64,000 nucleotides of DNA from Fischerella sp. PCC 9431 (GTDB lineage: Bacteria; Cyanobacteriota; Cyanobacteriia; Cyanobacteriales; Nostocaceae), in NCBI RefSeq assembly GCF_000447295.1, contig NZ_KE650771.1, forward strand, positions 3,669,964 to 3,733,963, written 5' to 3'. Position numbers and translations under genes: made by a program. This document shows, one piece after another, positions 1,771 to 12,026 of the stretch. The notes below the pieces were generated by a model. It saw only the letters and a list, made by a program, of their open reading frames with translations. It had not been told where the DNA came from and searched no databases. Positions within the stretch are counted from its first letter, which is position 1. Every line of letters begins with the position of its first letter.

Positions 1771-1940
1771 TGTTACCCCTTGATTTAGTTGATATTGGCT
1801 TAAATACTATAGGATTCTATTGTATTTTTGTTGGTGTAAGGGACTTGCGGATAAATAAAATACCAGGCATTCTAGAAGATTAGGAAGGGCAGATATACCC
1901 GCGCCTGCTCGAAATTTTGAGAATTGGAATTGCTTTATTC

Positions 1941-2411
1941 ATGCTTACCGACACCATCAAATCTACATTCAAAGATGCAGCGAAGAAACTCACCGGCAAC
2001 CGCAAACGAGACTTTATGGCAAAAGTAACTGAAGATTACTTCGAGAGTTCAGCACGTAAAGCCGAAACCGTTTTGGGATGGAATCGCCATAGTGTGGAAC
2101 TTGGCTTGCATGAAAGGCGGGCGGGGATAGTCTGTGTAGATAATTATCAGGCAAGAGGAAGACATAGTAGCGTTGAGATTCTGCCCAATTTAGAATCGGA
2201 TATGCGTTTACTGATAGATGCTCAAGCCCAAGCTGATCCAAAATTTCAATCTCCATTTTTATATGCCCGCGTCAGCGCTAGAGCAGTACGAGAAGCATTG
2301 GTGAGTGAAAAAGGCTACGACGAAAACGAATTGCCGACTCGTCAAACTTGCGGGGAGATTCTTAATCGCTTGGGATATCGCCTAAAAAAACACAAAAAAC
2401 GAAACCCTTGA
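1941..2411 (+). CDS. ISAzo13-family transposase, N-terminal part (ORF A)
   Basis: The ATG at 1941 gives MLTDTIKST, which matches the usual N-terminus of this transposase group; an upstream in-frame TTG at 1917 is less likely. The 156 residues form the DNA-binding part, including a segment that begins HSVELGLHE and continues into GIVCVDNYQARGR, and a helix-turn-helix-like stretch (ARVSARAVREALVSEKGY followed by LPTRQT). The frame ends at TGA 2409-2411, overlapping the start of the second frame. The expected continuation (KKTQKTKPLKKIP) is found in the -1 frame right after an A7 run, so the two frames together encode one DDE transposase. Either programmed -1 frameshifting or a single-base indel could explain the split; the slippery site favours the former. 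Confidence 0.85.
   Translation: MLTDTIKSTFKDAAKKLTGNRKRDFMAKVTEDYFESSARKAETVLGWNRHSVELGLHERRAGIVCVDNYQARGRHSSVEILPNLESDMRLLIDAQAQADPKFQSPFLYARVSARAVREALVSEKGYDENELPTRQTCGEILNRLGYRLKKHKKRNP
2384..2390 (+). promoter_or_regulatory. Putative -1 ribosomal frameshift site (A AAA AAA)
   Basis: Seven adenines lie exactly in the X XXY YYZ phase of the upstream transposase frame: codons AAA at 2385-2387 and 2388-2390, preceded by A at 2384. A one-base backward slip enters the second frame, which is open from 2366, and gives the protein junction KKTQKTKPLKKIP. A second run of six A lies at 2394-2399. No experimental support is available. Confidence 0.6.
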
Positions 2412-3136
2412 AAAAGATTCCTCAAACTGATGCCATTTTCGAGAATGTGTTCCGCGAGAATCAAGCATCAGATGAAAATCCCAAATCGTTGCGACTGTCC
2501 ATTGATAGCAAAGCAAAGGTCAAGATTGGCAACCTTTCCAGAGGTGGGAAGGCACGTACTCTAAAGCCAAAAGAGGCGGATGACCACGATACACAGTGGC
2601 AAACAATCTTAGTTCCGTTTGGTATTCTCAACACTCACAGCGATCAGTTATCGATTTACTTTGGTCACTCAGCTGAGACTAGTGATTTTATCGTCGATTG
2701 TTTAACTGCTTGGTGGAACGAGAATCAACACGATTACCACGATCTCGATGAATTGCTGATTGACCTTGATGGCGGTGCCGCAATCCGTAGCGATCGCACG
2801 CAATTTATCAAACGTATGGTTGAATTATCTCAAGCCATTGGTTTAAAAATCCGACTAATTTATTACCCCCCGTACCATAGCAAGTACAACCCGATAGAAC
2901 GATGTTGGGCTGCGTTAGAAAACTATTGGAACGGCGCGATTCTAGACTCCGTTGAAGCTGCTCTACACTGGACTGCCAATATGACTTGGAAAGGGATTAC
3001 ACCCATTGTACATTGGGTCGAAACCACCTATGAAAAAGGAATTAAGGTTCTCTCACAAGAGTTAGAACAGTACCAACTTTTCTGGCAGCGTTCTGAAACA
3101 TTACCCAAATGGGATATCACCATTGTCCCAGTTTGA
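2408..3136 (+). CDS. ISAzo13-family transposase, catalytic C-terminal part (ORF B)
   Basis: The frame is open from 2366. A TTG at 2408 overlaps the TGA of the first frame, but translation more likely enters by a -1 shift at 2384-2390. The product contains the RNase H-fold catalytic core of the family: the ADDHDTQW region, ELLIDLDGGAA carrying an acidic catalytic residue, then YYPPYHSKYNPIERCW with the terminal catalytic Glu, followed by a basic/aromatic tail ending WDITIVPV just before the right inverted repeat. No internal stops are seen, so a full-length fused transposase of about 398 residues can be made. Confidence 0.85.
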   Translation: MKKIPQTDAIFENVFRENQASDENPKSLRLSIDSKAKVKIGNLSRGGKARTLKPKEADDHDTQWQTILVPFGILNTHSDQLSIYFGHSAETSDFIVDCLTAWWNENQHDYHDLDELLIDLDGGAAIRSDRTQFIKRMVELSQAIGLKIRLIYYPPYHSKYNPIERCWAALENYWNGAILDSVEAALHWTANMTWKGITPIVHWVETTYEKGIKVLSQELEQYQLFWQRSETLPKWDITIVPV

Positions 3137-3166
3137 CTGGTATCTTATTTTCTTGCAAGTCCCTAA

Positions 3167-3488
3167 CCTGCATTATGTGCTTAAATTCACTACACTTTCT
3201 GTTCTCTATTCTCTACTCTTCATTTTCATAAGTAAGTTCATCAATTAATTTCACATTTGTTTACATATTGGATTCTTTTCTGGAATTATATTTTTCCATC
3301 TAGTATTCATATATAAGCTTAAATTTTTTTGAGGATTGCTTAGGTCTTACTTGAAAAGTGCATAAATTAATTTAGCTGCACCTAATCATCCTTTAGAAAT
3401 TTTTGAGAAAAGTTGAAGTGTTCTCAAACCTTGACATTGGCAAGAAAAAAGTGTCCTACAAAACCCTACTTTGTAAAGGAGAAATTGT
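3167..3488. other. Intergenic region downstream of the IS element
   Basis: This AT-rich stretch contains no reading frame I can support. Near its right end there is a TTGACA (3431-3436) with a poor -10 region about 17-18 bases downstream (around 3454-3460). A clear ribosome-binding site AAAGGAG precedes the ATG at 3489. It probably holds the promoter of the next gene. Confidence 0.4.
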
Positions 3489-3767
3489 ATGTCGAATAAT
3501 ATGGAGGATGTATTTGTAGATGTTGTAGAGAATAAACCTAAATCAGTAGTTCAGAAATATCTACAAAATCCCTTTTCGATTGCATGGTCAAAACTAGCTA
3601 CATTAACGCAACCTGTCCATAGGCGCACAACAGAAACACAGGAAGACGAGCAATCCGAAGAAGATAGACCAGATTTTACCCCAGATCGAGGTTTGTACCG
3701 TCCCTTCACTGACCGCATCGATCCATCACTTTACTATGCCATCTTCTTTCCGCACCAACGCTTATAA
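3489..3767 (+). CDS. Small hypothetical protein, 92 residues
   Basis: The ATG at 3489 is preceded by a strong Shine-Dalgarno sequence (AAAGGAG, 9 bases upstream), which supports real translation. The protein has an acidic N-terminus (MEDVFVDVVENK), a middle with several aromatic and hydrophobic residues (LQNPFSIAWSKLATL), an acidic linker (ETQEDEQSEEDRPDF) and a C-terminal segment rich in aromatic residues (LYRPFTDRIDPSLYYAIFFP). No signal peptide or membrane helix is evident. I do not recognise the family. A hairpin repeat at 3797-3829 follows and may terminate the transcript. Function unknown. Confidence 0.65.
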   Translation: MSNNMEDVFVDVVENKPKSVVQKYLQNPFSIAWSKLATLTQPVHRRTTETQEDEQSEEDRPDFTPDRGLYRPFTDRIDPSLYYAIFFPHQRL

Positions 3768-3796
3768 GTAGAACAGCGTAAATGATTAAAGGTTTG

Positions 3797-3829
3797 TAGT
3801 AAGCGCTTGACCGAAGACAGCGCTTACTA
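3797..3829. repeat. Hairpin repeat (TAGTAAGCGCT inverted)
   Basis: A perfect 11-bp inverted repeat, TAGTAAGCGCT at 3797-3807 and its complement at 3819-3829, with an 11-base loop. It lies 30 bases after the stop of the small upstream gene. It resembles the GTAGTGAGCGCTTTAGC hairpins at 17857-17902, so it probably belongs to a dispersed cyanobacterial palindrome family and may also act as a transcription stop. Confidence 0.6.
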
Positions 3830-3888
3830 AGATCTAATTTTCAAGTTTTATTTCTATTCACATAGTTTGGTTTATTCTCGTGTCTACA

Positions 3889-4047
3889 CTACTGTTGTGT
3901 TGTTGGTGAAGTAACTGGAACAGAAGGAGTGCGATCGCTACGGTAGTTTAGAAATCCCAAGTAGCCTAAAAATACGACTAACCCAATGAGAGTAGCAATC
4001 TGAATAGATTTTTCGATAGAAATAAAGCTGCGTAAAAACTTGTCCAT
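3889..4047 (-). CDS. Small single-pass membrane protein (uncertain)
   Basis: From the ATG at 4047 the product is 52 residues: a basic/amphipathic start (MDKFLRSFISIEKS), one clear transmembrane helix (IQIATLIGLVVFLGYLGFL), and a short Ser/Thr/Pro-rich tail. The frame also opens upstream at an ATG at 4152, which would overlap the end of the DUF1778 antitoxin gene by 14 bases; the extra 35 residues do not look like a natural N-terminus, although a 14-base overlap would fit translational coupling. No strong ribosome-binding site is seen before 4047. It occupies the position where a GNAT toxin would be expected next to a DUF1778 antitoxin, but it has no GNAT features. Function unknown; moderate doubt that it is a gene. 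Confidence 0.45.
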   Translation of the reverse strand: MDKFLRSFISIEKSIQIATLIGLVVFLGYLGFLNYRSDRTPSVPVTSPTTQQ

Positions 4048-4138
4048 AAAACATCTGAAACTAGAATTTGCTTTTATTCTAGACGTTGATTTGTCTGTCA
4101 AGTATCCATAAACAGGCAAAAATACATCACTAACACTA

Positions 4139-4438
4139 TCAAGCAGAACCATTTAACTCCATCACTTGCTCATAGCGCACAGTAGCGGCTTTGAGTGCAT
4201 CATTAGGTTGTGGAGAATTCAGGAGCGCATCCACTAAAGCTTCACTATCTTCAATACTCAGTTTGAGTGTTTGATGTTGTTCGATGACTCGACAAGCTGC
4301 TGCTTGAACACTTGCGATCACAAAATCAGTCAGGGTACGTCCCTCTAAGTCAGCAGCTTTTTGCCAAAGAGCCTTAATTTCTGGGGTAACACGAGCTTCT
4401 AATCGTGCTGTTGATTTTTGATTATTTGTAGTAGCCAT
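4139..4438 (-). CDS. DUF1778 family antitoxin (TacA-like), apparently without its toxin
   Basis: A 99-residue protein starting at the ATG at 4438. The N-terminal part fits the ribbon-helix-helix DUF1778 pattern (TARLEARVTPEIKALWQKAA, then LEGRTLTDFVIASVQ), followed by a helical toxin-binding tail (IEQHQTLKLSIEDSEALVDALL). In the usual TacA-TacT arrangement a GNAT acetyltransferase toxin follows immediately and is neutralised by this protein, which also represses the operon. Here the overlapping downstream frame encodes a small membrane protein and no GNAT fold is seen. A perfect palindrome (4473-4487) just upstream is a plausible autoregulatory operator. Family assignment is confident; whether it pairs with a toxin elsewhere is unknown. 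Confidence 0.85.
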   Translation of the reverse strand: MATTNNQKSTARLEARVTPEIKALWQKAADLEGRTLTDFVIASVQAAACRVIEQHQTLKLSIEDSEALVDALLNSPQPNDALKAATVRYEQVMELNGSA

Positions 4439-4472
4439 GTCAATAAAGATGGACTTTGACTATTTCTATTAC

Positions 4473-4487
4473 ACGGCAAAATGCCGT
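4473..4487. promoter_or_regulatory. Palindromic operator candidate upstream of the DUF1778 gene
   Basis: ACGGCA-AAA-TGCCGT is a perfect 6-bp inverted repeat 35 bases upstream of the antitoxin start codon. Ribbon-helix-helix antitoxins of this type bind palindromes that overlap their own promoter, so self-repression is the likely role. This is inferred from position and symmetry only. Confidence 0.5.
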
Positions 4488-4637
4488 ATAAAAATCCTGA
4501 GCGTGGAAATTTGTGTCTATTCTCGTCCGAAAATTTTGCTATTTAACGACTGTGTATAAACTAAAAAATAAAACTAAGTACTCTCAACATATACAATTTT
4601 GTAGAGATAGTATAAAGCAGTTGTATTTTAAAAGCTA

Positions 4638-5231
4638 TTGCACAATGTCATCGCTATTTACCCCGCCAATAATTTTTACGAATTCTATGTCACACCTAAC
4701 GGACATAAGTATTACAGGGAATTAAAGCAACGCTCTGGTCAATCAGTAGAACGCACGGAAAGTTATGTGAAAAACTTCCTAAATGCAGAGCAATTTCGGA
4801 AAAATTACCCTCAAGCCTATGAAAAATGGCTACAAGCTGAAGAAAACCTTTGGGTGGAAGACTGGGAAACCCAACTGACAAAGATTGGTCATGACTGCCG
4901 AGAGGCAATTCAGAAATTTGCAGAAACTCTGATCAATCGCTATCAGCTCCAACATAAATACCCAGATCAAAATAAGGACATAGGACGTATCAAAGCTGTC
5001 ATTGAGCAGCGTAAAGAAAAACTCAGTCAAAAGGAGAAGAAATTTCTAGATAGCCTTTTAGAATACCTAGATAGCCTTTTAGAATACTGGAAAGCCTTAA
5101 GTGGCTTAGTCCAAAGACAAGAGCATGGTATCCAAGATGTTAATGAATCACTGACTTGGGAGGATGGACGCAGGGTTGTGTTTCAAACTGCAATTGTCAT
5201 GTTTGAAGTTGACAGAAGTCTTTCTCGTTGA
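4638..5231 (+). CDS. Hypothetical protein, possibly 5'-truncated
   Basis: About 197 residues, strongly helical and charged, with no signal or membrane segment. The frame has no ATG before its last residues; the first usable codon is TTG at 4638 and no convincing ribosome-binding site precedes it, so the gene may have lost its 5' end. Recognisable stretches are PNGHKYYRELKQRSGQS, a central coiled-coil-like part (QRKEKLSQKEKKFLDSLLEY) and a conserved-looking C-terminus (LTWEDGRRVVFQTAIVMFEV). An exact 21-bp tandem duplication (5046-5087) adds a second LDSLLEY. I do not recognise the family and do not assign a function. Confidence 0.55.
   Translation: MHNVIAIYPANNFYEFYVTPNGHKYYRELKQRSGQSVERTESYVKNFLNAEQFRKNYPQAYEKWLQAEENLWVEDWETQLTKIGHDCREAIQKFAETLINRYQLQHKYPDQNKDIGRIKAVIEQRKEKLSQKEKKFLDSLLEYLDSLLEYWKALSGLVQRQEHGIQDVNESLTWEDGRRVVFQTAIVMFEVDRSLSR
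5046..5087 (+). repeat. Perfect 21-bp in-frame tandem duplication
   Basis: The 21 bases beginning CTAGATAGCC at 5046-5066 are repeated without a mismatch at 5067-5087, duplicating seven residues (LDSLLEY) inside the hypothetical protein. Perfect identity implies a recent event or selection for extending the helix by two turns. Confidence 0.9.
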
Positions 5232-5401
5232 TGTGATGTAAAAATAACGATAGATTTATACCCATGTGTTGAATCGAGGCGATCAAAGAATTTATAGTCC
5301 ACTTGCTCTATGATACGATCGCACCCCTACCCATCATTAACTGTGCGATCGCTATTAACCCAAATCTTCCTCGGTTTAATAATGTCTGTAGTATAGGAAA
5401 C

Positions 5402-6628
5402 TCAACTTTCCCTATTGACTTGCTTCGATTTTTGATCAAGGCGAATAGCTTGCTCTAAAGCTAATTTCTCTTTCGATCTACGAGCATAGGGTTGTAGCTT
5501 ACTTAAATTCCAACCAGTAATGAGACTCATCTGCTCTAAATTCATTCCCTTCATCAGCATTTCTACGCACCACGTTTGTTGAGCTTGCTCAATTACTGGC
5601 TGTTGTCCTTCTGGTGTCAGCAATTCTTCAGTTAATATCTGCCAAATTCTTTGTATTTCTTCCTCAGATATTGGCATTCCTACGTCGTTGAGAAATAGCG
5701 CCGCATGTTCATCCTTACGGCTTTTGAGCCATTGAGTTAATGGATTGCGAGTATAAGAGCCATAGCTTTTACCCATAATCCATTGATTGACAGGCACTTG
5801 TCGAGGAGTAGTTTGAGTGATTTGTAATAAATGCTGATTGGGATTGTTAATTTGATGCATTCGCTCTAAAGTGACAATTTCTGATACCGATAAACCTGCT
5901 GCAAACAAGACATACATTAACGCATAATCTCGCAGTCCTGATTTTTTGGCTCTCTGCAAAATCAAGTGAACTAAATTTGCTGGTAAATCTATCACCTTTT
6001 CTGTAGAAATTGATTCTCCTAAAGTTGCAGAGTTTGTTGCTCCTTTTAAAAACAGCACTACCAAATTTTCTAAAAACTCGTCTCGATCCAACCAAAGCTC
6101 GTGAAATTCACTGGTAAATTCAATCACAGCATATCCCACTAACATACTATTGAGTAAGCTTGCTAGCTTCTCGCTAGGTAAATAGGTATGTAATTCTTCC
6201 CGTTCCATAACTGTTGCTAAATATTCGGCAACATAGTGATTAGCTTGGGTTAAGCTGCGTCCTAAAGCCTGACGATTTTCTAAGGGATAATTTCCGGCTT
6301 CACCGACTACAGAACGCACCAAATCTGGGATTTTTTCTAAAGCCAGTAGGCGATCTTCACAATAGTTTTTCAAAGCTTGATGAACACTGGCTGGTTGACT
6401 AGCTTGAATTTTTAAAGACTCATCCAGTTCTTGAAATACTGGTGATTCGGAAATTACTGCCAAAAGTAACCCGTGCTTATTGCCAAAATGGCGAAACAAC
6501 GTCACTTCATTAACTTCTGCTAGTTCTGCAACTTGCTTTGTTGTAGTCTCGGTGACTCCTTGCGCTGCAAATAATGACCTTGCTGCATTAATTAATCGCT
6601 GTCGAGTAGAAATTACTTGGTTGGGCAT
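5402..6628 (-). CDS. TetR-type regulator fused to a degenerate tyrosine-recombinase-like domain
   Basis: A 408-residue protein from the ATG at 6628, about twice the size of an ordinary TetR regulator. Residues 8-55 form a classic TetR helix-turn-helix (RQRLINAARSLFAAQGV, then TTKQVAELAEVNEVTLFRHF). Residues about 60-205 resemble the TetR ligand-binding half. The remaining 200 residues look like a phage-integrase catalytic domain: LRDYALMYVLFAAGLSVSEI corresponds to the box that normally reads GLRxSEL, and QQTWCVEMLMKGMNLEQMS followed by LITGW and YARRSKEK corresponds to the HxxR/GH/Tyr boxes. The first catalytic Arg is Ser and the HxxR motif is lost, so recombination is unlikely and the domain probably binds DNA or mediates assembly. 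The gene is divergent from a desaturase, with two palindromes between them. The TetR part is certain; the integrase likeness is my reading. Confidence 0.85.
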   Translation of the reverse strand: MPNQVISTRQRLINAARSLFAAQGVTETTTKQVAELAEVNEVTLFRHFGNKHGLLLAVISESPVFQELDESLKIQASQPASVHQALKNYCEDRLLALEKIPDLVRSVVGEAGNYPLENRQALGRSLTQANHYVAEYLATVMEREELHTYLPSEKLASLLNSMLVGYAVIEFTSEFHELWLDRDEFLENLVVLFLKGATNSATLGESISTEKVIDLPANLVHLILQRAKKSGLRDYALMYVLFAAGLSVSEIVTLERMHQINNPNQHLLQITQTTPRQVPVNQWIMGKSYGSYTRNPLTQWLKSRKDEHAALFLNDVGMPISEEEIQRIWQILTEELLTPEGQQPVIEQAQQTWCVEMLMKGMNLEQMSLITGWNLSKLQPYARRSKEKLALEQAIRLDQKSKQVNRES

Positions 6629-6638
6629 AAGCTAAAAA

Positions 6639-6655
6639 TGCAAGTGACACTTGCA
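6639..6655. promoter_or_regulatory. Operator 1 between the TetR-like regulator and desC
   Basis: TGCAAGTG-A-CACTTGCA is a perfect 17-bp palindrome with a single central base. It lies 10 bases upstream of the regulator's start codon, in the divergent intergenic region. Its size and symmetry are typical of a TetR-dimer site, and its position suggests that the regulator represses its own gene. Confidence 0.75.
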
Positions 6656-6685
6656 ATTAAATTTGATCCTTGTTAGACTTAGCCA

Positions 6686-6702
6686 TGTAAGTAGCACTTG
6701 CA
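6686..6702. promoter_or_regulatory. Operator 2 between the TetR-like regulator and desC
   Basis: TGTAAGTAGCACTTGCA is a near-copy of operator 1: the right half CACTTGCA is identical and the left half differs at two positions around the centre. The centres of the two sites are 47 bp apart. This copy is nearer the desaturase and probably controls that promoter. Two copies of one motif between divergent genes make a regulator-target link likely. Confidence 0.65.
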
Positions 6703-6796
6703 TATTCTATTCTTAGTTTAGCTGTCTTCGTGATAACCAGTACATGCTCGGCACTGGTTGATTTACAGTATTCAATTCACGTCAAAGGAAAAAATT

Positions 6797-7651
6797 ATGA
6801 CTACACGCTCAATAGCGGCTGTTGACAAACAACCGTTGACTCTGAGTTGGACTAGCGTCGTATTTTTTGGCGCATTCCACGCCCTAGCACTGTTCGCTCC
6901 TTGGTGTTTTTCCTGGCCTGCTTTGGGAATAACCATATTTTTGCATTGGTTGTTTGGCAGTATTGGTATTTGTTTAGGGTATCACCGACTCTTAACTCAC
7001 CGAAGTTTGCATGTACCAAAGTGGTTAGAGTATGCGATCGCAACTGTGGGCGCTCTTGCTTTACAGGGAGGGCCTATCTTTTGGGTAGCTGGACACAGAT
7101 TGCATCATCTTCATACCGAAGATACAGAGAAAGACCCCTATTCCTCCCGGCGTGGTTTTTGGTGGAGTCACATGTTGTGGCTTTTTTATCCACGTGCAGA
7201 GTTTTTTAACTATGAAAAATACAAAAAATTTGCTCCTGACTTAGATCGTGAGCCATTCTATCGTTGGCTAAATCGCTATTTCTTGCTATTACAAATTCCT
7301 GTTGCTGTCCTATTGTATGCTTTGGGAGGATGGTCTTTTATTATCTACGGTGTGTTTCTACGAGCAGTATTACTTTGGCATAGTACTTGGCTAATTAACT
7401 CTGCAAGTCATCTGCGTGGTTATCGTCATTTCAAAGTCAATGATAACTCTCGTAATCTTTGGTGGGCAGCACTTTTAACCTATGGAGAAGGTTGGCATAA
7501 TAACCACCATGCTTATCCAAATGTCGCAAAAGCTGGATTGCAATGGTGGGAAGTAGATATGACTTGGTGGGCAATTAAAATATTACAAACTCTTGGTTTA
7601 GCTAAAAAAGTTGTGATGTTTCCAAAGCCAAATGTTGATATTAGTGGTTAG
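6797..7651 (+). CDS. desC: Fatty-acid desaturase, delta-9 DesC type
   Basis: Membrane di-iron desaturase of 284 residues that introduces the first double bond into acyl chains of membrane lipids; ferredoxin is the expected electron donor in cyanobacteria. The three histidine boxes are present in order: HRLLTH near residue 60, HRLHHLH near 95 and HNNHH near 235, with hydrophobic membrane segments between them. The ATG at 6797 (MTTRSIAAV) is chosen because AAAGGA precedes it; a TTG at 6758 would add 13 residues without homology value. The gene is divergent from the TetR-like regulator and shares the two TGCAAGTG-type palindromes, so transcription is probably repressed or tuned by that protein. 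The DesC subfamily (sn-1 or sn-2 specificity) cannot be fixed by eye. Confidence 0.92.
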   Translation: MTTRSIAAVDKQPLTLSWTSVVFFGAFHALALFAPWCFSWPALGITIFLHWLFGSIGICLGYHRLLTHRSLHVPKWLEYAIATVGALALQGGPIFWVAGHRLHHLHTEDTEKDPYSSRRGFWWSHMLWLFYPRAEFFNYEKYKKFAPDLDREPFYRWLNRYFLLLQIPVAVLLYALGGWSFIIYGVFLRAVLLWHSTWLINSASHLRGYRHFKVNDNSRNLWWAALLTYGEGWHNNHHAYPNVAKAGLQWWEVDMTWWAIKILQTLGLAKKVVMFPKPNVDISG

Positions 7652-7678
7652 TTGTTCTTGCAAATGACAAATGACGCC

Positions 7679-9016
7679 TTATTTTCCTAATTTATTGGGA
7701 ATACCTTCGCAACCACCAGGAATTGTACTTCTGGTGTTTTCGCCACCCCAAGCACAGCAGTAATATCGGTTAGCTTCAGACAGACGCTGGACTTCACTCA
7801 AGTTTGCATTTTCCACTACAGCGCCTGTGTATTCACCAGTTTCGTAGTTTGGTAATTTATTACGACTACGAGGTGATGCAGTCTCTGGGGAACCATAAAA
7901 TAAACAAGTACCGTTGAGGTCTGCCTGAGTGAGGTCGGCTTCATATAAAATACAGCGAGAGAGGTTAGCTTTAACCAAATCACACTCACGGAGATTAGCA
8001 TGGACTAGATTAGCTTCGCTTAAGTCAGTCCAGCGCAGATCAGTACTAGATAAATCTGCACCTGCTAGCATTACTCCTAAATCAATCACACGTACACCAT
8101 AAATACGATCTTCCGCATAACCGCCTGTACCATCAAGAATAGCTCGACCAAGCAGGCGATCGCGTTTTAGAGGTGTGAGTAATTTAGAACGAGATAAAAA
8201 CCGCAGAATTTTTGCTTTCCCACTGCCGTCTACACTACTAAGAATAGCCGCAGTGCGTCCTTCTGCTAATAACCTTTCTTGAGGCCAATCTTCTAATAAT
8301 CCCTCTTCATCTAATACTAAATCGGAAATACCCTGAAAATAAGAATCAATTGTCTGCTGCTGAGTAATAATATTTTGCTGGACGGTAAGCAAGTTTTGCT
8401 GAATAGTTAGGTCTTTAGAAATGATGTACTGTCGCCAAGCAATGTAAACAGCGATGATTGCAATCAGAATTTGTCCTAATGCACCAAACCATTCCGCTAG
8501 TGTCCCGGAAGCTTCCCAATTAATTTTGCGTCCGACAGCAACTAGGTAATTACTCAAACCACTGTATTTAACCAAACCAGCGATCGCGACTATTATTCCC
8601 AATAATCCAAGTACTAATGCTTGTTCCTGGGCTGAGAACCACTCTTTTTGCAGTTCTTGCAACCAAGGCCAAATAATAGCTAAAGATAATAATAAAGTGA
8701 TAACGGTTCCTAAAATACCAAGAATTTGGCTATTGATGGCAAGTCCAATGATTGTAGTGGCGATCGCCGCTAAAATTAACAGTAAAGCTCTTGGTTTAAC
8801 GCTAATAGCCTGACTAGCAAGTGGTTTGACTGTGGAACGTGCTTTTAGTAAGACTGCTGTATTTTGAGGAGACTGTAGTGAGGAAATAGCAGCTAAGGCT
8901 TGCTGAGTAGTCAAATCATTGGGAATTAAATCAATATTAGATGAATTGTCAAAATCACTTGGTTGCAAGTTTTGTTCTGAATTTGGGGGTTGGGATGAGT
9001 TGGAATCAATGGACAT
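7679..9016 (-). CDS. Membrane-anchored pentapeptide-repeat protein
   Basis: 445 residues from the ATG at 9016. The N-terminal 70 residues are polar (Ser/Asn/Gln-rich). They are followed by about four hydrophobic segments between residues 75 and 200 (for example LLLILAAIATTIIGLAI and ALVLGLLGIIVAIAGLV), a coiled-coil-like Gln-rich linker (TIQQNLLTVQQNIITQQQT) and a pentapeptide-repeat block of A(D/N)Lxx units around residues 315-375 (ADLSSTDLRWTDLSEANL and onward). Pentapeptide repeats form a right-handed quadrilateral beta-helix, usually a protein-interaction surface. The C-terminus (after about 380) has two Cys near the end. No enzymatic motif is visible. It is convergent with desC, 27 bases apart. 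Function unknown. Confidence 0.85.
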   Translation of the reverse strand: MSIDSNSSQPPNSEQNLQPSDFDNSSNIDLIPNDLTTQQALAAISSLQSPQNTAVLLKARSTVKPLASQAISVKPRALLLILAAIATTIIGLAINSQILGILGTVITLLLSLAIIWPWLQELQKEWFSAQEQALVLGLLGIIVAIAGLVKYSGLSNYLVAVGRKINWEASGTLAEWFGALGQILIAIIAVYIAWRQYIISKDLTIQQNLLTVQQNIITQQQTIDSYFQGISDLVLDEEGLLEDWPQERLLAEGRTAAILSSVDGSGKAKILRFLSRSKLLTPLKRDRLLGRAILDGTGGYAEDRIYGVRVIDLGVMLAGADLSSTDLRWTDLSEANLVHANLRECDLVKANLSRCILYEADLTQADLNGTCLFYGSPETASPRSRNKLPNYETGEYTGAVVENANLSEVQRLSEANRYYCCAWGGENTRSTIPGGCEGIPNKLGK

Positions 9017-11624: not shown

Positions 11625-12026
11625 TTAACCCATTAAAATGACTGTATCAATAACGTGAATGACACCATTATCAGCTTCAATATCTGCGGCTAGAACAGTA
11701 GCATTTTTGACTTCAAATCCCTCAGAACAGTCAATTTTAATTGTTGAACCTTCCACAGAAGTCACAATCCCAGCTTGAGCTAAATCTGCTTGCTTGAGCT
11801 TTCCTGGTACAACATGATACTTTAAAATACGTGTTAGTTGGGGAATATTCTGCACGAGGGTTTGTATAGTCCCTGGCGGTAACTTGGCAAAAGCATCATC
11901 ATTAGGCGCAAAAACAGTAAATGGGCCAGGACTTTTTAATACATCTACTAAACCTGCGGCTTGTACAGCAGTTACTAGAGTTGAAAAAGAACCTGCACCA
12001 ACAGCAATATCAACTATATCAGCCAT
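11625..12026 (-). CDS. Fasciclin (FAS1) domain protein
   Basis: 133 residues from the ATG at 12026; the whole protein is one FAS1 domain. Characteristic blocks are present: [17 protein letters not shown] (H1 region), [36 protein letters not shown] (YH motif) and [14 protein letters not shown] at the end (H2 region). FAS1 domains mediate adhesion between proteins or to polysaccharides. No signal peptide is visible, so export is uncertain, as is common for the short cyanobacterial FAS1 proteins. It lies alone, with the preceding acyltransferase gene in the same direction 170 bases downstream, separated by a repeat. Identification is firm, role inferred. Confidence 0.92.

Follow-up and report, generated by a model that had tools for sequence, protein, structure and literature searches.

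TetR-family repressors that respond to acyl-CoAs at desaturase promoters have been described as DesT, FabR and MadR (PMC8872791). The locus analysed here resembles these systems in that a TetR regulator lies beside its putative desaturase target, an adjacent desC gene with operators placed on the predicted promoter. However, the regulator (TetR-INT) also contains a recombinase-fold domain (INT), which is not mentioned for DesT, FabR or MadR in the relevant portions of PMC8872791. The likeness fails at the level of the protein family, as TetR-INT reaches 21.7 bits with the NCBIfam model for FabR, whose cut-off is 151.

Recombinase domains that have lost most of their catalytic tetrad are kept in eukaryotic transcription regulators, namely the DUF3504/Crypton domains of KCTD1, ZMYM2-4 and WOC, for which parts of PMC3212892 propose DNA or protein binding and call specific functions hard to propose. 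TetR-INT looks like a bacterial counterpart of these domesticated domains. The Cryptons are, however, eukaryotic, joined to other partner domains and of Crypton origin, whereas TetR-INT is bacterial and apparently of Xer origin. DUF3504 is absent from the Pfam families listed to E 10 for both the whole protein and its C-terminal half, a list from which HMMER filters drop most weak matches. In 12 of its 27 matching places, a review of mobile-element genes recruited in prokaryotes (PMC8987985) holds no such case, and no description of the TetR-INT family was found in the literature searched, mostly papers readable outside subscription. The domain combination is real, conserved and widespread, and apparently undescribed: ordinary repressor logic in an unusual construction. 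For about half of the Cyanobacteriia sampled, it offers a candidate regulator of a second desC-type desaturase and so has a bearing on membrane-fluidity adjustment in cyanobacteria. Moreover, the system offers a defined target gene, an operator pair and a natural member lacking the domain, and the use of INT is therefore directly testable.

Table 1. Features of the TetR-INT/desC locus. Coordinates are positions in the window, i.e. the whole stretch of 64,000 nucleotides that was analysed.
Feature	Position	Strand	Basis or remark
TetR-INT fusion protein, 408 aa, ATG start	5402..6628	-	translation; Pfam TetR_N and Phage_integrase; full-length matches in relatives
INT, tyrosine-recombinase catalytic fold without most catalytic residues, residues 212-400	5429..5995	-	Pfam, profile, Foldseek, dN/dS
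EQAQQ at the place of HxLRH, residues 347-351	5576..5590	-	alignment with Xer controls
Family-specific insertion MGKSYGSYT, residues 285-293	5750..5776	-	gap in three Xer-type controls
Ser247 at the place of catalytic Arg I	5888..5890	-	S in 109/133, R in 3/133
Variable linker, residues 199-211	5996..6034	-	pLDDT <50 at 199-209; low pairwise identity
TetR ligand/dimerisation domain, residues 61-198	6035..6448	-	AlphaFold helices; boundaries by eye from model
TetR_N helix-turn-helix, residues 12-58	6455..6595	-	Pfam E 5.2e-13; VNEVTLFR invariant
Operator 1, perfect 17-bp palindrome	6639..6655		10 bp upstream of TetR-INT ATG; contains putative desC -35
-35-like TTGCAA of desC, overlaps operator 1	6651..6656	+	conservation
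Extended -10 (TGT TAGACT) of desC, 17 bp after -35	6671..6679	+	conservation
Operator 2, near-palindrome	6686..6702		at expected desC transcription start
desC-type fatty-acid desaturase, 284 aa	6797..7651	+	Pfam FA_desaturase E 1.6e-23

Architecture of the regulator

The original prediction of a TetR regulator fused to a degenerate tyrosine-recombinase-like domain was borne out. A TetR regulator joined to a tyrosine-recombinase fold is genuine: Pfam recognises both TetR_N (49 bits against a cut-off of 24, with positions 1-47 of the 47 in the profile covered) and Phage_integrase (residues 219-386, E 1.4e-9, with 38.5 bits where 27.1 is the cut-off), and the catalytic residues of the latter are mostly lost. 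Within the TetR_N domain, residues 39-46 are invariant in all 54 aligned members. The features typical of TetR/AcrR regulators, i.e. a helix-turn-helix, a helical ligand domain and a palindromic operator near the own or divergent gene, are all predicted for this locus. In the full-length AlphaFold model (mean pLDDT 83.1) the ligand domain is all-helical, with helices between residues 68 and 198, residues 199-209 are disordered, and 15 of the 20 ten-residue blocks from residue 211 on reach at least 90. The arrangement of the TetR and INT halves is uncertain in this model because of its pTM of 0.50. The linker region varies strongly among 33 orthologues (mean pairwise identity of 0.377 over residues 196-216).

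When compared with known structures by Foldseek, the full-length model matched TetR proteins of the FadR type (Bacillus/Clostridium/Thermus; 6azh, E 1.5e-6; 3whb, E 4.6e-6; also 5gpc and 3ang) as well as EthR, and the FadR match is not specific since EthR and other TetR proteins score about equally. XerA was also matched (E 3.2e-6), with an rmsd of 15.9 that indicates a poor joint fit. A structure prediction and fold search of the C-terminal half had been set beforehand as the check on its supposed recombinase fold, and they supported this fold. Modelled separately, at a lower confidence (pLDDT 72.8), this half found XerA as its best match (5hxy, E 2.1e-6, with query-normalised TM values of 0.56-0.61 over five chains), and all 14 matches at E<=0.001 were tyrosine recombinases, comprising XerA, XerH, Tn1549 Int, archaeal Xer and Cre. 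On the sequence level, a profile built from 25 C-terminal halves recovered the XerC-like 4a8e (E 2.3e-11), and the best recombinase families in NCBIfam were XerD (41.9 bits) and XerC (37.8 bits), both far under their cut-offs. INT shares its catalytic fold with Xer-type proteins (XerA/XerC/XerD/XerH), and no other proteins outside the family match it better in sequence or structure. It differs from the Xer-type proteins in the loss of most of the catalytic set, in a TetR part replacing the core-binding domain and in a family-specific insertion. Pfam lists no core-binding domain for TetR-INT, in which TetR precedes the catalytic fold.

Catalytic columns were set by aligning three free-standing Xer-type proteins (L228, L229, L230) with 133 family members, and the R/H/R/H/Y of these controls fall at residues 247/347/350/373/381. 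Two losses had been called in advance, a Ser in place of the first catalytic Arg and a missing HxxR box, and both hold in the verified columns (Table 1). Across the family, His at residue 347 is found in none of the 133 members, residue 350 is Q in 113 and R in 17, residue 373 is W in 58 and C in 57, and Tyr is kept at residue 381 in 123. The hairpin Lys (GKG in the controls) never occurs at the same position (0/133), with some hairpin Lys present in 13 of 133. Taken together, 126 of 133 members retain 0-2 of the five scored catalytic residues (none in four members, one in 66, two in 56), three are kept in five members, four in two, and all five in none, so that the family lacks the set R-K-H-R-H/W-Y of active tyrosine recombinases. 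Catalysis by INT therefore looks lost in the family, and for the window's protein both the recombinase fold and its inactivity are almost certain from sequence and model. The loss is uneven, since L026 and L143 retain four of the five scored positions (both arginines, Trp and Tyr), and for these two members recombinase activity is not formally excluded. The family-specific insertion is itself highly conserved, with Y289 in 132 and G290 in 133 of the 133 members. In one member, L224 (G068), the linker is long and INT is interrupted by a long insertion rich in lysine; in the stretch covered at this locus, only one operator-like site scores 12 or more of 14.

Operators and the desC promoter

Two 17-bp palindromes had been recognised between the divergent genes, and they stand as described, operator 1 being perfect and operator 2 a near-copy. 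Their match count within the 64-kb window is not significant by itself (four matches with up to three mismatches against 2.68 expected, a number reached by 30 of 100 shuffles). What argues against chance is conservation: the pair is kept at orthologues, near desC at 133 of 134 distinct loci, the INT-less L089 counted among them. These loci form an uneven sample, largely retrieved as best matches, with 15 distant ones picked by hand. The exception, L086, has one operator only. The pair lies within 400 bp of the regulator start at 128 loci and further upstream, toward desC, at L008, L028 and L090. At L081 and L083 the two genes share a strand, with the regulator gene first, and the pair is located between them. 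The operators remain with desC where gene order or intergenic length differs.

Control loci lacked this arrangement. No operator pair was present at the three desC orthologues in genomes without the fusion or at the 26 lower-identity desC copies fetched (34 exist), although for L195 and L199 the upstream region covered was only 158 and 317 bp; one of these 29 loci has a single weak operator site. A search of 21 whole genomes for the exact operator pattern returned it in 12 of the 13 genomes with the regulator, all listed places being at this locus, and neither in G313, which has the regulator, nor in the eight genomes without it; a reversed control pattern occurred once each in two genomes. 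In the window's own genome, four places match with at most one mismatch, two of them at this locus and the others at 5108307, which appears to lie inside a coding stretch, and at 715419. With two mismatches allowed, 53 places per strand were obtained versus 14 for the reversed control pattern, so weak operator sites elsewhere in this genome are possible.

The choice of desC as the target was well founded: a desC orthologue adjoins the regulator gene at all 134 distinct loci, divergently in 132, and the operators appear to bracket a conserved promoter. On the desC strand, 132 of 133 loci carry TTGCAN where operator 1 ends, followed after 17 bp by TAnnnT in 121 (118 with a preceding TGn) and after 18 bp in another 10, compared with 0-6 loci at the offsets 12-16 and 19-23. 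At 17 bp, 84 of 133 loci match TATAAT in at least 4 of 6 places, and the motif points toward desC in 131 of 133. In the window, the first base of operator 2 is the seventh one past the -10. The claim of a desC promoter rests on this conservation, because a generic sigma-70 scan reported no promoter in this stretch. A conserved promoter toward the regulator gene was also considered and rejected as unconvincing (best TAnnnT offset in 82 of 131 loci). As a side observation, scoring of either strand also picks up operator 1 as an intrinsic-terminator-like hairpin, probably because the palindrome lies beside T-rich DNA.

Operator spacing was compared at 131 loci and amounts to 42 bp (3 loci), 43 (2), 44 (2), 45 (1), 46 (37), 47 (70), 48 (7) and 49-58 (9), i.e. 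46 or 47 bp in 107 loci with a full range of 42-58 bp. Among the loci listed, the part that changes in length is the one separating operator 2 from the -10 box, downstream of the latter, so that promoter geometry would explain most of the constancy. On the other side, operator 1 ends 7-12 bp before the regulator ATG in 105 of 131 loci. As for the desaturase itself, its third histidine region (HSTWLINSASH) is closer to the DesC1/DesC2 pattern than to that of DesC3, as given in part of PMC4390868. The second desC copy in the window's genome is 53% identical.

Repression of desC and the role of INT

Taken together, these findings make it very probable that TetR-INT acts as a repressor dedicated to desC and to its own gene. 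Taken separately, repression of desC is highly likely and autoregulation of the regulator gene somewhat less so, though still likely. The TetR half would dimerise and recognise the two near-identical palindromes bracketing the desC promoter, with operator 1 covering the -35, close to the start codon of the regulator gene itself, and operator 2 lying over the expected desC start site. Two operators around a promoter make a repressor layout, and bound dimers would thus shut off desC and probably also their own gene. By analogy with FadR, DesT and MadR, release might be brought about by a lipid-linked signal such as acyl-CoA or acyl-ACP.

Recognition of the operators very probably falls to the TetR half, as one member keeps them without INT. 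In L089 (G081) a stop codon after 236 aa leaves the TetR half with a proline-rich tail, both operators are retained 47 bp apart, and the INT profile has no match anywhere in this genome, which is one contig rated 100% complete. We read L089 from its sequence as a natural loss of the recombinase domain, and INT is dispensable in G081 given that it is gone there while both operators remain. L225 (G264) was rejected as a second such species because its gene reaches the contig end before any stop codon; G264 has no INT profile match, but this genome is 85% complete.

Elsewhere the domain appears to be maintained. Among the five closest members (10 pairs) the median dN/dS of INT is 0.135, i.e. less constrained than the TetR ligand domain with 0.059. 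Between the window's protein and six further members (21 pairs) the medians are 0.131 for INT and 0.127 for the ligand domain, rough values since these members are ~77-81% identical to the window's protein and dS is near 1. By this measure (median dN/dS of 0.13) INT is under purifying selection although most of its catalytic residues are gone, which suggests that an old recombinase domain has been given a new, structural use within a gene switch. A Xer-type recombinase would have been joined early in cyanobacterial history and then largely stripped of catalysis, and INT might now serve as a self-association module that strengthens the occupancy of both operators via the flexible linker.

Recombinase catalytic domains act as interlocking multimers, and for this reason self-association is ranked first among the roles of INT. 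The same argument has been made for DUF3504 in part of PMC3212892. We put forward this role tentatively, as a conjecture akin to the original idea of multimerised operator-bound dimers with cooperative repression, and regard the explanation as a whole, a dedicated local repressor with INT most likely being a self-association module, as moderately probable. The more specific version is doubtful, namely that the INTs of two operator-bound TetR dimers would associate in a synapse-like manner and clamp the desC promoter without chemistry, following an ancient domestication near the cyanobacterial base. A rigid fixed-phase bridge between the operators is unlikely: strict dependence on spacing is disfavoured by the 42-58 bp range, by the promoter as the explanation for most of its constancy and by the operators of G081, which persist without INT. 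Helically phased bridging was likewise rejected, as the 131 spacings fit no one fixed phase.

Other roles of INT have to be weighed against self-association. As an auxiliary DNA-binding clamp, it would have kept the backbone-binding face and would add flanking or non-specific contacts or bending without any protein bridging. The domain is indeed mildly basic, its net charge averaging +2.5 over 133 members (from -4 to +7) while the TetR ligand domain averages -8.2, and it has conserved basic residues at 228, 256, 276, 302, 304, 305, 360, 384 and 388. The residues gripping the scissile phosphate are mostly absent, however, and Pfam does not find the core-binding domain that forms the other half of a recombinase clamp, which leaves this role unlikely. 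Equally unlikely, in our view, is a docking or sensing domain through which a partner protein or ligand would couple desC repression to another signal. The conserved insertion at 285-293, missing in the Xer controls, would suit such a role, and a solved complex of the XerD C-terminal domain with FtsK gamma exists (5dcf), but no candidate partner was identified in this analysis.

It is very improbable that the palindromes belong to another regulator and that the fusion protein acts elsewhere, as the operators accompany the gene at 133 of 134 loci, even where gene order has changed (L081, L083), and neither a pair at desC loci without the fusion nor an exact operator in the eight genomes lacking it was detected. 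In inversion switches two similar sites flank a promoter, as they do here, and Tyr381 is kept in 123 of 133 members with two members at four of five catalytic positions, but a live enzyme inverting or excising the promoter between the palindromes (phase switch) is ruled out for practical purposes by catalytic loss (Arg I kept in 3/133, His II in 0/133, Arg II in 17/133), by the constant promoter direction (131/133 toward desC) and by operators that persist in G081 without INT.

Spread and ancestry of the fusion

A search for the domain pair in other cyanobacteria had been proposed, and of the 291 Cyanobacteriia genomes sampled, 157 have a match at E<=1e-40, some matches spanning one half only. 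Full-length matches were obtained in 33 of 59 relatives, own genome counted, and the INT half had no further matches at E<=0.01 in these 59. In a phylum-wide draw of 292 genomes, with at most 11 candidates scored per genome, the INT profile matched 42 at E<=1e-6: 30 were strong, one was weak inside the class (G062) and 11 were outside Cyanobacteriia (E 4.9e-10 to 8.5e-7, open frames of 291-342 codons). Three of the twelve weak matches were opened (G062, G449, G510), and all three hold the Xer catalytic residues at each of the five positions scored. The family is present in G071 and G103, which we take to be Gloeobacter violaceus and G. kilaueensis; if this identification holds, the fusion arose close to the base of the cyanobacteria. 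Distances of the TetR and INT halves are correlated across 133 members (r 0.865, reached by none of 500 shuffles) and therefore consistent with a single fusion passed on as a unit.

The INT half probably descends from a Xer-type tyrosine recombinase, because XerD and XerC are its best families and the INT profile gives 32-39 bits to three free-standing Xer-type proteins, compared with about 20 bits or less for integrases encoded in the window's genome. A phage origin was rejected after an INT profile scan of viral contigs returned no relative. Among plasmids, 14 records match, one at full length and 13 across the TetR half only. Plasmid pP742403 of Gloeothece citriformis PCC 7424 encodes a member (L231) that is 61% identical and annotated as a TetR/AcrR family regulator, with both operators present 47 bp apart. 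On this plasmid, typed mobilizable, the regulator and desC are found (2067-8348) beside genes for an orange-carotenoid-protein N-terminal domain, an ssl1498-family light-harvesting-like protein, and one pentapeptide and one fasciclin protein. Pentapeptide-like (7679-9016) and fasciclin-like (11625-12026) genes, named by eye, also occur near desC in the window. Further, two ORFs with a 4-base overlap at 1917-3136 of the window look by eye like one frameshift-split transposase, possibly a programmed one.
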